Source: Desulfovibrio sp. DV (lineage in GTDB: Bacteria > Desulfobacterota > Desulfovibrionia > Desulfovibrionales > Desulfovibrionaceae). Taken from it: 46,348 nucleotides of DNA. Shown piece after piece: positions 25,583-29,668 of the stretch. Below the pieces are notes generated by a model. That model saw nothing but the letters and a program-made list of their open reading frames with translations, was not told the origin of the DNA and did no database searches. Numbering within the stretch: position 1 is the first letter of the stretch; each line of letters starts with the position of its first letter. The translations under genes and the position numbers were made by a program. The DNA lies in the NCBI RefSeq assembly GCF_001936595.1, contig NZ_MLBG01000022.1, forward strand, positions 1 through 46,348, in the 5' to 3' direction.

Positions 25583-25659
25583 TGGGGTGACTGATGGGGC
25601 TCGAACCCACGACAACCAGGGCCACAACCTGGGACTCTACCAACTGAGCTACAGCCACC
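25583..25659 (-). tRNA. tRNA-His (GTG)
   Basis: Read on the minus strand, the gene begins GGTGGCTGTAGCTC, including the extra 5' G (position -1) typical of tRNA-His. It has the D-loop AGTTGGTAGAG and an anticodon stem CCAGG with loop TTGTGGC (anticodon GTG). The T arm is GTGGG-TTCGAGC-CCCAT, and the 3' end has an encoded CCA. The total length of 77 bases is as expected. A sigma-70 promoter lies just upstream and a terminator just downstream, so it is a single-gene unit. Confidence 0.97.
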
Positions 25660-27082: not shown

Positions 27083-27469
27083 ATGCCGTCAGTCTTTCGC
27101 GCCTTGGTTGCCCTCGCCTGCCTGGCCCTGGCCGGGCCGGCCCAGGCCTACGGCCTTTTCACCTGTGTGGACGCCGCCGGCCGCGAGGTCTGCGTCATCG
27201 ACACCGGAACGGCCACCGACATCATACCCAGCCAGCTGTGCAACGCCTCCTGCCCGCCCTGCGCCGGCCGCTGCGACGCGGCCCGGCGCTACGAGGGACA
27301 GGCCGGTCACTGGCAGAAAGGCTGGCAGGTGGCCCCGGGCATTGATGGCGACAACCGCATGGTTCCCGGAGCCGGTCCCCGGGAAGATGCCCGGATCATA
27401 CTGCAGGACGGGCTGGTCGCGCCCGAGGCTCCCCCGGTGCTGCCCCCGTCGGGCTATACCGGCTCTTGA
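27083..27469 (+). CDS. Secreted Cys-rich small protein
   Basis: The 128-residue product has a signal peptide with a hydrophobic core and cleavage after A-Q-A at about residue 22. The mature N-terminal half contains seven cysteines (C28, C37, C53, C57, C60 and C64 among them), including the cluster CNASCPPCAGRC. This suggests disulfides or a metal site in the periplasm. The C-terminal half is Pro/Gly-rich. No family is recognised. The ATG at 27083 follows CGGAGG. It lies 20 bases after murA on the same strand. Its stop overlaps the -35 box of the next transcription unit. Confidence 0.65.
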   Translation: MPSVFRALVALACLALAGPAQAYGLFTCVDAAGREVCVIDTGTATDIIPSQLCNASCPPCAGRCDAARRYEGQAGHWQKGWQVAPGIDGDNRMVPGAGPREDARIILQDGLVAPEAPPVLPPSGYTGS

Positions 27470-27495
27470 CGGGCCTCCCGGTTTGCGTTTAGATT
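27466..27495 (+). promoter_or_regulatory. Sigma-70 promoter of the aromatic attenuator
   Basis: TTGACG (27466-27471), an 18-base spacer and TAGATT (27490-27495) form a plausible sigma-70 promoter. Transcription would start at about 27501-27503, essentially at the ATG of the leader peptide. Confidence 0.5.
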
Positions 27496-27501
27496 CGGCC
27501 C

Positions 27502-27600
27502 ATGCAGACTCGTCAGACCGCCACGCGCATCGCTTTTTTCGGACCGTATTATTATTACGGCCTTCGCGCTCGCGGCTTGGCGGGTGGTGGGGCCAGATAG
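27502..27600 (+). CDS. Leader peptide of a Phe/Tyr attenuator
   Basis: This open frame of 32 codons (ATG at 27502, TAG at 27598) encodes a peptide with two Phe codons and then four consecutive Tyr codons: FFGPYYYYG at residues 12-20. Such a run of aromatic residues is the hallmark of amino-acid attenuators such as those of pheA or trp. The next gene makes an early intermediate of aromatic amino acid synthesis. There is no Shine-Dalgarno before the ATG, and the predicted transcription start nearly coincides with it, so translation may be leaderless. Scarcity of charged tRNA-Tyr or tRNA-Phe would stall the ribosome in this run. Confidence 0.78.
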   Translation: MQTRQTATRIAFFGPYYYYGLRARGLAGGGAR

Positions 27601-27627
27601 GGCCACACCGCAAAACTCCGCCGACAA

Positions 27628-27660
27628 GGGCCGCGGGCAACATGCCCGGCGGCCCTTTTT
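27628..27660 (+). terminator. Attenuator terminator with competing antiterminator arm
   Basis: GGGCCGC-GGGC (27628-27638), loop AACAT, and GCCC-G-GCGGCCC (27644-27655) followed by five T form a strong terminator between the leader peptide and the aldolase gene. GCGGCTT at 27572-27578, 14 bases after the Tyr codons, can pair with the terminator's 5' arm GGGCCGC (two G-U pairs). A ribosome stalled on the Tyr codons would leave that arm free and allow read-through; one that reaches the stop codon would cover it. The Tyr codons also lie in their own small hairpin (CCGTA/TACGG, 27544-27560). Confidence 0.8.
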
Positions 27661-27713
27661 CATAAGCGCTGCCGGGTCCCGGCTCCAGGCGACAACCGCC
27701 AGGGAGAATGACC

Positions 27714-28517
27714 ATGACCATCGGCAAATCCATCCGTCTTGAGCGCATCATCAACCGCGACACCGGCCGCACCATCATTGTGCCGCTTGATCACGGCGTC
27801 ACCGTCGGCCCCATCGAGGGCATCGCCGACATGCGCGAGACCGTGACCAACATTGTGGCCGGCGGGGCCAACGCCGTGCTCATGCACAAGGGCGTTGTGC
27901 GCTGCGGCCACCGGGCCCGGGGCCGCGACGTCGGGCTCATCATCCATCTTTCGGCCAGCACCAGCCTGTCCCCCTTTCCCAACGCCAAGACCCTGGTGTG
28001 CACGGTGGAAGAGGCCATGCGCCTGGGAGCCGACGCCGTGTCGGTCCACGTCAATCTCGGCGACGCCACCGAAGCCCGGATGCTCGACGACATGGGCCGG
28101 GTCACCGAGGCGGCCGTGTCCTGGGGCATCCCGGTCCTGGCCATGATGTACGCCCGGGGTCCGAAGATTTCCAACGAGTTCGACGCCGACGTGGTGGCCC
28201 ACTGCGCCCGGGTGGGCAACGAACTCGGGGCCGATATCGTCAAGGTCCCCTACACCGGCGACCCGGACAGCTTTGCCAGGGTGGTGGCCGGGTGCTGTGT
28301 GCCGGTGGTCATTGCCGGCGGCCCCAAGACCGATACCACGCGCGACTTCCTGACCATGATCGCCGACAGCGTCATGGCCGGCGGCTCCGGCTTGTCGGTT
28401 GGGCGCAATATCTTCCAAGACCCGGACCCGGCCAAGTTGCTGGAAGCCGTTACGGCCATTGTCCACGAAGGCAAAAGCGTGGACGCGGCCATGGCGATGC
28501 TCGGACGGGGGGAATAA
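27714..28517 (+). CDS. 2-amino-3,7-dideoxy-D-threo-hept-6-ulosonate synthase
   Basis: The 267-residue product belongs to the DhnA-type class I aldolases and matches the enzyme that condenses a ketohexose phosphate with aspartate semialdehyde. This is the first step of the alternative route to 3-dehydroquinate used by methanogens and Desulfovibrio. The fold markers are [11 protein letters not shown] (Asp26), Y146 in MMYARGP, and the Schiff-base Lys177 in [13 protein letters not shown] and GRNIFQ bind phosphate. Fructose-bisphosphate aldolase is the alternative reading, but the Phe/Tyr attenuator upstream argues for the aromatic role. I prefer the ATG at 27714 (GGGAG, eight-base spacer) to the one at 27708. 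The partner 3-dehydroquinate synthase II gene does not follow; an AT-rich island does. Confidence 0.85.
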
Positions 28518-28738: not shown

Positions 28739-29668
28739 CTAATCGTCGGCAGCCAGTCTATAAAATGCATATGCATTACTATTATTTCTGCTGCGCTTCA
28801 ACATAGAAATCCCAACCGGTGTAATTTCATTATCATCGTCGACAATCCCATTTCTTTGAAACAAATCAATAGAATCTTTAGAAAATAAACCATTACGCAA
28901 TAGCTGCTGGAATTCATCTCCCAAGCAGGAGCTCTTAACAGTGTAAAAATTTTTTTCCCCCATTTGTTGCCTCATCGTCGGAACGATAATTTTTCTAATT
29001 AAATTTCCAGCCATTTTTGTATTAAAACAAGGCCCGTCTTCATACGTCATGGCATTCGTTTGGTCATATTCATCATTTGAAGACTGCGTGAGATTGTCTA
29101 ATTTTTTAATCAAACGAGCGAGTTCTGCACGCTTTTGATCGAGTTCTTTGTCTTTTAACTCAATTTCATTTATAAATTTCTGCTTTTCTTCTTCTTGAAG
29201 CCTTGCCTTATCAGCCAATTCTTCTATGATCTTTGTACGTTCCTCAACTTTTCCTTTCAACTCCTCTTTGCTTTCCTCTACTTCTTGCCGAATATCTTGC
29301 AATTGCGTCAAGTTTGGTCGCATATTAATATTTGCACACATAGCATTATATCCTTCATCAAGATGCCTAAGCCTCTCACCAAATCCACTCTCTATCCTAA
29401 CAAGCAATTCAGCAATGTCCTTAGTAAACTTATAAGTATTATTATAAAATGTATTACTAGTTTCTGTGGCCTTAAAATAAAAAAGAGCCGATAGAGCTAT
29501 TGAAAACAATGCCAACACCAGCGACAACAGACTTGAAAAATCAAATACAATATTAAATTGCGTAACAAACAATTTATACGATGCGAAACAAACAAATACA
29601 AAAATAGACACACCAACAGATATATCAACAATCAAACTCTTCAGCTTCTGAGGCGACGATTCTTCCAC
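28739..29668 (-). CDS. Orphan membrane/coiled-coil protein of an AT-rich island
   Basis: The product is 309 residues and not recognised. Two transmembrane segments near the N-terminus (about 16-36 and 44-65) form a membrane hairpin. A linker follows, then a long charged coiled coil (about 120-195, many E/K heptads), and a C-terminal globular domain (about 205-309). The last part (LLRNGLFSKDSIDLFQRNGIV, then EITPVGISML) looks like a small winged-helix or DUF-type fold, but I cannot name it. Base composition is far more AT-rich than all neighbours, which indicates recent transfer. The GTG start at 29668 has a perfect AGGAGGA four bases upstream, and a good promoter lies before it, so it is likely expressed. 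No transposase or integrase is adjacent. Confidence 0.75.
   Translation of the reverse strand: MEESSPQKLKSLIVDISVGVSIFVFVCFASYKLFVTQFNIVFDFSSLLSLVLALFSIALSALFYFKATETSNTFYNNTYKFTKDIAELLVRIESGFGERLRHLDEGYNAMCANINMRPNLTQLQDIRQEVEESKEELKGKVEERTKIIEELADKARLQEEEKQKFINEIELKDKELDQKRAELARLIKKLDNLTQSSNDEYDQTNAMTYEDGPCFNTKMAGNLIRKIIVPTMRQQMGEKNFYTVKSSCLGDEFQQLLRNGLFSKDSIDLFQRNGIVDDDNEITPVGISMLKRSRNNSNAYAFYRLAADD

Follow-up and report, generated by a model that had tools for sequence, protein, structure and literature searches.

Putative Tyrosine-Coded Attenuation of a Stand-Alone ADH Synthase Gene in Desulfovibrio sp. DV and Related Leaders in the Desulfovibrionales

The aroA′ gene of Desulfovibrio sp. 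DV, which by its sequence encodes a stand-alone isozyme of 2-amino-3,7-dideoxy-D-threo-hept-6-ulosonate (ADH) synthase, is very probably controlled by a ribosome-mediated transcription attenuator with charged tRNA-Tyr as its main signal. Ribosome-mediated attenuation of this archaeal-type first step had been proposed in an initial annotation of the DNA, and our analysis strongly supports the proposal: the two alternative RNA helices covary, and their spacing and conservation fit.

The Leader Region of aroA′

The window (the whole 46,348-nucleotide stretch of DNA analyzed) contains the following features of the element and its target gene.

27466–27495, + strand: sigma-70-type promoter, TTGACG-18-TAGATT (motif scan; same layout in relatives)
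27502–27600, + strand: leader peptide ORF of 32 codons, MQTRQTATRIAFFGPYYYYGLRARGLAGGGAR and stop (...FFGPYYYYG...)
27508–27528, + strand: candidate region 1, which could pair with region 2 as an anti-antiterminator (full-length fold, no ribosome)
27535–27540, + strand: two Phe codons, TTT TTC, not conserved
27547–27558, + strand: control codons, four Tyr, TAT TAT TAT TAC, kept within the genus
27568–27578, + strand: region 2, the 11-nt antiterminator arm GCTCGCGGCTT, partner of 27628–27638 (folding; covariation)
27579–27622, + strand: inner hairpin of the antiterminator (folding with the RNA 3′ end at 27643)
27628–27660, + strand: intrinsic terminator, GGGCCGCGGGC / GCCCGGCGGCCC / TTTTT, with 5′ arm 27628–27638, loop 27639–27643, 3′ arm 27644–27655, and U tract 27656–27660 (folding; covariation)
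27702–27706, + strand: Shine-Dalgarno sequence GGGAG of aroA′, 7 nt before 27714
27714–28517, + strand: aroA′, ADH synthase, stand-alone isozyme (ORF listed from 27708)

The promoter is the sole sigma-70-type match within 27200–28000 (shuffles, mean 0.0). ATG-initiated ORFs of 15–45 aa with at least five aromatic residues in nine number two in the window (both strands), and 30 first-order Markov copies of the window gave a mean of 0.1. The aroA′ leader is the only one of the two with six aromatics in nine; for this threshold the copies averaged 0.03 ORFs, and YYYY did not occur in them. The codon run is better named Tyr than Phe/Tyr.

An intrinsic terminator is present between the leader and aroA′; its 5′ arm is common to terminator and antiterminator, the latter being placed just behind the control codons. 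The leader stop codon (27598–27600) sits in the apical loop of the predicted inner hairpin. A simple terminator scan listed another site (27470–27485) and omitted 27628–27660, because the stem has a bulge; folding does find it. The region 27500–27720 folds with a z of −3.67, and none of 200 shuffles was as good. The promoter, the 32-codon leader with its two Phe and four consecutive Tyr codons, and the strong terminator had all been marked in the initial annotation and are borne out here, as is its antiterminator arm (27572–27578), which lies inside the 11-nt arm.

Identity of aroA′ and a Second ADH Synthase

The aroA′ product scores 382.6 bits against TIGR01949 (above the equivalog cut-off of 299.45) and matches MJ0400 of M. 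jannaschii along its length (E = 5.1e-96). Asp28, Tyr148, and Lys179, which we take to be the active-site residues of MJ0400, align in the product with identical residues of 2qjg. The closest named relatives are found in Solidesulfovibrio aerotolerans, S. magneticus, and S. alcoholivorans, which places the window in the Desulfovibrionales. Translation probably starts at the ATG at 27714 and not at 27708, because GGGAG is found at 27702–27706 and other members of the genus have only the 27714 ATG.

Two genes of the genome score above the ADH synthase cut-off, the stand-alone aroA′ and a copy on another contig (G000:C33) that is 67% identical. The second copy is followed by the genome's single 3-dehydroquinate synthase II gene and by pheA; operons of this type continue with aroA, tyrA, and trpE in relatives within the genus. 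It has its own leader, MQTLRNLTSGFYFWFWFSHARGLGGVRSN (FYFWFWF), which contains all three aromatic amino acids and has the same arms. The initial suggestion of control at the first step of the pathway agrees with the target being an ADH synthase, with the amendment that this gene is the stand-alone second copy and that the operon copy has an all-aromatic attenuator of its own.

DAHP synthase of either class was not found in the genome (no PF00793 or PF01474 match), though one protein with a DHQ_synthase domain is encoded (G000:C95:3333-3671); possibly this is a sugar-phosphate cyclase with another role. Between aroA′ and bioD lies an ORF (28739–29668, − strand) with a coiled-coil-like product, no Pfam family, and sub-threshold NCBIfam matches only; it may be an insertion. 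Upstream of the leader are murA and a 128-aa ORF ending at 27469.

Conservation, Covariation, and Spacing

The element adjoins the orthologous stand-alone gene in 13 of the 14 genus genomes covered, the remaining one (G002) being 69% complete. An alignment of 12 genus members gives an identity of 0.95 for the Tyr codons and the arm together (0.97 at third positions) and of 0.93 for the terminator, versus 0.60 for the upstream DNA and 0.85 for third positions of aroA′. Both the aromatic codon run and the terminator are therefore kept in relatives; their lack of conservation was the outcome that, by the initial annotation, would have refuted the proposal.

Covariation was assessed in an alignment (A1) of 78 leaders, limited to two for each genus and context, except that g1 could contribute three. 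The antiterminator helix is paired in 90.4% of cells, with changes on both sides at six of 11 pairs, and all five covariation measures beat 500 of 500 shuffles; the terminator helix is paired in 98.6%, with both-side changes at nine of ten pairs. When the partner is slid along the sequence, antiterminator pairing falls to 36–49%; the slide of −2 gives 30 cells with both-side changes versus 28 observed, at a pairing of just 36.5%. Both mutually exclusive helices covary across the 78 leaders. In 89 of 112 leaders, at most two of 50 shuffled regions pair equally well with the terminator arm.

Counted from the first nucleotide of the final control codon, the arm starts after 9–12 nt in 85 of 109 leaders; the leading edge of a ribosome stalled at this codon would lie at about that point. 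A candidate hairpin between regions 1 and 2, with region 1 lying 5′ of the control codons, has moderate support across the order (mean z −1.79; p ≤ 0.05 in 53 of 108 leaders) and is not supported within the genus, where p ≤ 0.05 is reached in only one of 12 leaders.

Proposed Mechanism and Alternatives

The element may work as follows. Transcription would begin at the leader ATG or immediately next to it. When Tyr is sufficient, the ribosome would pass the Tyr codons to the stop codon, open the inner hairpin, and keep region 2 off region 3 (27628–27638), so that the terminator would form and aroA′ would not be made. When Tyr is scarce, it would stall on 27547–27558 with its front edge no farther than 27568; region 2, together with the inner hairpin, would then fold onto region 3, the terminator would be blocked, and the isozyme would be made.

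In folds of RNA ending at 27643, the antiterminator has a probability of 0.79–0.90 with the ribosome masked on Tyr16–Tyr19, 0.90 with no ribosome (the same as in the stalled states), and 0.64 with the ribosome at the stop codon. In the full RNA the terminator is preferred (P = 0.93) in each full-length state tried. Equilibrium folds alone show no switch, so the choice would have to be made kinetically or sterically, as it is in classical attenuators.

The initial annotation had named Tyr plus Phe as the signal. The Tyr part of this stands: Tyr is the more likely main signal, because the Tyr run is kept within the genus and Phe is absent from three leaders (L015, L018, and L019). Joint sensing, in which starvation for either amino acid would antiterminate, appears rather doubtful. 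It draws on the two Phe codons directly before the Tyr run in the leader itself, on the antiterminator probability of 0.90 that RNA ending at 27643 also gives when Phe12 or Phe13 is the position of the masked ribosome, and on mixed F/Y leaders in relatives (L022, L026, L090, and L111). Against it, the 12 distinct genus leaders contain four or five Tyr codons each, while their Phe codons number none (L015), one (seven leaders), or two (four leaders), and L018 and L019, from other genera, keep the Tyr run with no Phe. The Phe codons moreover lie 28–33 nt before the arm, as opposed to 10–21 nt for the Tyr codons. A contribution of Phe in Desulfovibrio sp. DV is possible.

An action of the peptide itself, by arrest of the nascent chain as in TnaC or in trans, is highly improbable. 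RARG is conserved in the leader peptides of the genus, and a trans role of a leader peptide (peTrpL) is described for Sinorhizobium meliloti in the available part of PMC7298713. However, the conserved ARG/ACG motif of the peptides is explained by the RNA arm: at L030, L120, and L145 the reading frame through this arm is a different one, and other residues result. Outside this motif and the aromatic run, peptides differ widely between genera.

It is scarcely credible that the hairpin merely terminates transcription coming from murA and the 128-aa ORF upstream and that the short ORF arose by chance. The upstream ORF does extend into the −35 box, as far as its fourth base, which makes read-through transcription possible, but tblastn matched it in just seven of 13 genus loci (L005–L010 and L012), and the terminator therefore belongs to aroA′; at L011 and L013–L017, where tblastn did not find the ORF, leader and terminator are still there. 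As for chance, six aromatics in nine are expected only about 0.03 times per window. A T-box or other riboswitch in place of a translated leader can be discounted almost entirely: Tyr T-boxes occur in other bacteria (PMC1262725, in the part available), but the sole Rfam match in the whole window at gathering thresholds is a tRNA (25586–25658), with no match to the T-box family, and a codon run at fixed spacing to the arm would be needless for a T-box. Conservation, the Markov control, Rfam, and the frame-shifted reads of the arm thus led us to reject peptide arrest, an upstream-gene terminator, a chance ORF, and a T-box.

Leaderless Transcripts

The −10 box ends 6 nt before the leader ATG at this locus; among the 113 leaders for which a promoter was called, the distance is 6–8 nt in 82. 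The −35/−10 signal and this gap are partly circular, because candidates were chosen partly by promoter score. Three further features were free of this selection. In a set of 98 leaders (gaps of 10 nt or less only, related genus members included), a Shine-Dalgarno-like word is found ahead of the leader ATG in ten and ahead of the aroA′ start in 67, and the base adjoining the leader ATG on its 5′ side is C or T in 95%; an A-tract precedes the −35 box. The transcript of the aroA′ leader is therefore probably leaderless, beginning at the ATG or directly beside it, and the same start would apply to most leaders of the family. Gaps of 23–29 nt occur in five leaders (L074, L123, L130, L140, and L150), mostly of operons without trp genes.

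Distribution and Codes of the Leaders

Protein matches were obtained in 92 of 99 genomes searched, and 137 distinct ADH synthase loci were gathered after merging those with identical 210 bases (L012 among the merged). A leader candidate was found at 115 of them, three of which (L025, L033, and L060) are not real leaders; 112 of the candidates have a terminator-like hairpin, a set that leaves out L033, L060, and L100, where the script found none. Four operons with two tandem ADH synthase genes (L079, L080, L106, and L125) have a leader before the first gene only. Two ADH synthase matches contain one internal TAG (G033:C22:88730-89524 and G017:C5:5014-5805).

Among the matches listed, aromatic leaders are also found outside the Desulfovibrionales, before ADH synthase genes of Desulfobacterales (L214, L219, L225, and L229) and at L241–L256, mostly from other families of the phylum; aromatic leaders are absent at L231, L261, L263, and L264. 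In one subgroup outside the order the terminator is a different one (AAAAGCCGTGG...), and the peptides end, for example, in GLPTVS or CASTFKS.

The leader code was compared with the genes downstream. Trp codons are present in the leaders of 54 of 54 operons with trpE, of five of ten operons without trpE in view (some of which may carry trp genes beyond a gap), and of two of 27 stand-alone genes. This comparison sets aside L025 as not a leader and, because the script misread their hairpin or arm, L137 (a Phe leader) and L065 (an operon leader with W); it also omits 16 operon copies cut off too early to judge trpE (13 with W) and two rows in which the downstream DNA was too short (W in both). 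Independent W–trp pairs number from three (supported branches) to six (all), the informative ones all in the expected direction; the sign test that takes relatedness into account was not significant (median p = 0.5). The association is mostly shared ancestry.

On a quick tree of ADH synthases, stand-alone copies fall into separate groups, and the minimum number of code changes is ten. A Tyr group holds the aroA′ described here, with L022 and L026 mixing in Phe; a second Tyr or Tyr/Phe group consists of L089, L153, L090, and L111, plus L114 with no leader; and a Phe group contains L058, L077, L078, L100, L136, and L145, while L137 groups with L152. Some other stand-alone copies, in Desulfonatronum (g48) and at L056, L093, L094, L105, L108, L146, and L147, have no leader.

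Elements beyond ADH Synthase

A covariance model of the element (R1) gave two strong matches in the Desulfovibrio sp. DV genome, both before ADH synthase genes (E = 9.4e-16 and 8.6e-10); these are matched by construction, because the source alignment includes both leaders. The next match has E = 3.9e-4, and the nine next-ranked of the 25 weaker matches (L267–L275), which were inspected, have no aromatic leader, one of them being the antisense strand of the operon element.

Of 59 genomes searched with R1, this one included, 55 gave a match at E = 1e-6 or better, and eight among the matches listed (L314–L321) do not adjoin ADH synthase. Four Phe leaders (L314, L315, L316, and L319) and one F/Y leader (L317) precede a small partner ORF and an SSF-type Na+/solute symporter gene, a configuration that predicts aromatic amino acid uptake. 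Trp leaders precede genes for DctP-type TRAP binding proteins (L318, LWWW; L320, NWWRFW), predicting uptake of Trp or Trp-related compounds. In G032, a WW leader precedes trpE (L321) and the leader of the ADH synthase operon (L141) is without W; the code has been split along with the genes. The families of these targets are backed by Pfam or NCBIfam; the L314 symporter and the G032 trpE are below NCBIfam cut-offs and rest on Pfam.

Relation to Known Attenuators

Enterobacterial pheA and trp attenuators consist of a codon run, mutually exclusive antiterminator and terminator, and a U tract (summarized in PMC11802643), and the aroA′ element resembles them in all of these. It differs from them in that the candidate region 1 lies 5′ of the control codons, that the antiterminator arm lies within the leader ORF before the stop codon, and that most leaders of the family are without a Shine-Dalgarno-like word. 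Like trpL of S. meliloti, as presented in the part of PMC7298713 available, the proposed leader transcript begins with its own ATG; trpL is Trp coded and serves a trp gene, and its trans roles are not indicated for the aroA′ leader.

In Corynebacterium glutamicum, aroR attenuates aroF, the gene for a canonical DAHP synthase (Neshat et al. 2014, per the available part of the review PMC11802643). Here too, a ribosome-mediated attenuator carrying Phe/Tyr codons precedes the gene of the enzyme that opens aromatic biosynthesis; unlike the aroA′ element, it serves a DAHP synthase and belongs to an unrelated phylum, and the available part of the review mentions no isozyme with a differently coded leader. 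The FYF leader of C. glutamicum responded to Phe and not to Tyr (PMC11802643), so codons do not always give the signal.

A 2005 list contains a putative attenuator before the D. vulgaris operon aroA'>aroB'>aroQ-pheA>aroF>tyrA>[trp] (PMC1173090 Table 7, from the Merino database), which is most likely the operon-type sister of the aroA′ element in the same order, the type whose leaders are FYW coded in our set. As it appears in the accessible part of that source, the entry is a predicted attenuator only; neither a leader peptide nor a codon code nor a mechanism is given there, nor is the stand-alone isozyme treated. "Leader peptide" has no occurrence in the main text. Searches of open-licence PMC literature (subscription journals are mostly not searchable) brought up no account of an ADH synthase isozyme under Tyr-coded control, of the differences in leader code, or of the elements before transporter genes. 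The suggestion that the design is undescribed therefore has to be narrowed, given the 2005 entry and aroR as they appear in these partly available sources: attenuation is a known mechanism, and what appears new is the target, the recoding between isozymes, and the link to transporters.

Significance for Aromatic Biosynthesis in Sulfate Reducers

The isozymes AroF, AroG, and AroH of E. coli are told apart by repressors and feedback inhibition. For the Desulfovibrionales, it seems likely on balance that a portable leaderless attenuator is the main layer of aromatic control and that isozymes are told apart by leader codons, with Phe, Tyr, and Trp in the operon leader and Tyr or Phe in stand-alone ones; the code would have been rewritten several times, and the cassette would also name the substrates (Phe or Trp) of the symporter and TRAP genes. 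Such leader codes predict substrates where the family models used give no specificity, and with them the order offers a clear example from nature of isozymes distinguished by leader code.

The attenuator offers a concrete, testable mechanism of aromatic control for sulfate reducers, whose pathway starts with an archaeal-type enzyme. Most likely, a spare first enzyme of this unusual pathway is switched on in Desulfovibrio sp. DV when tyrosine is short, and in relatives the same switch is re-spelled for phenylalanine, for tryptophan, or for all three.
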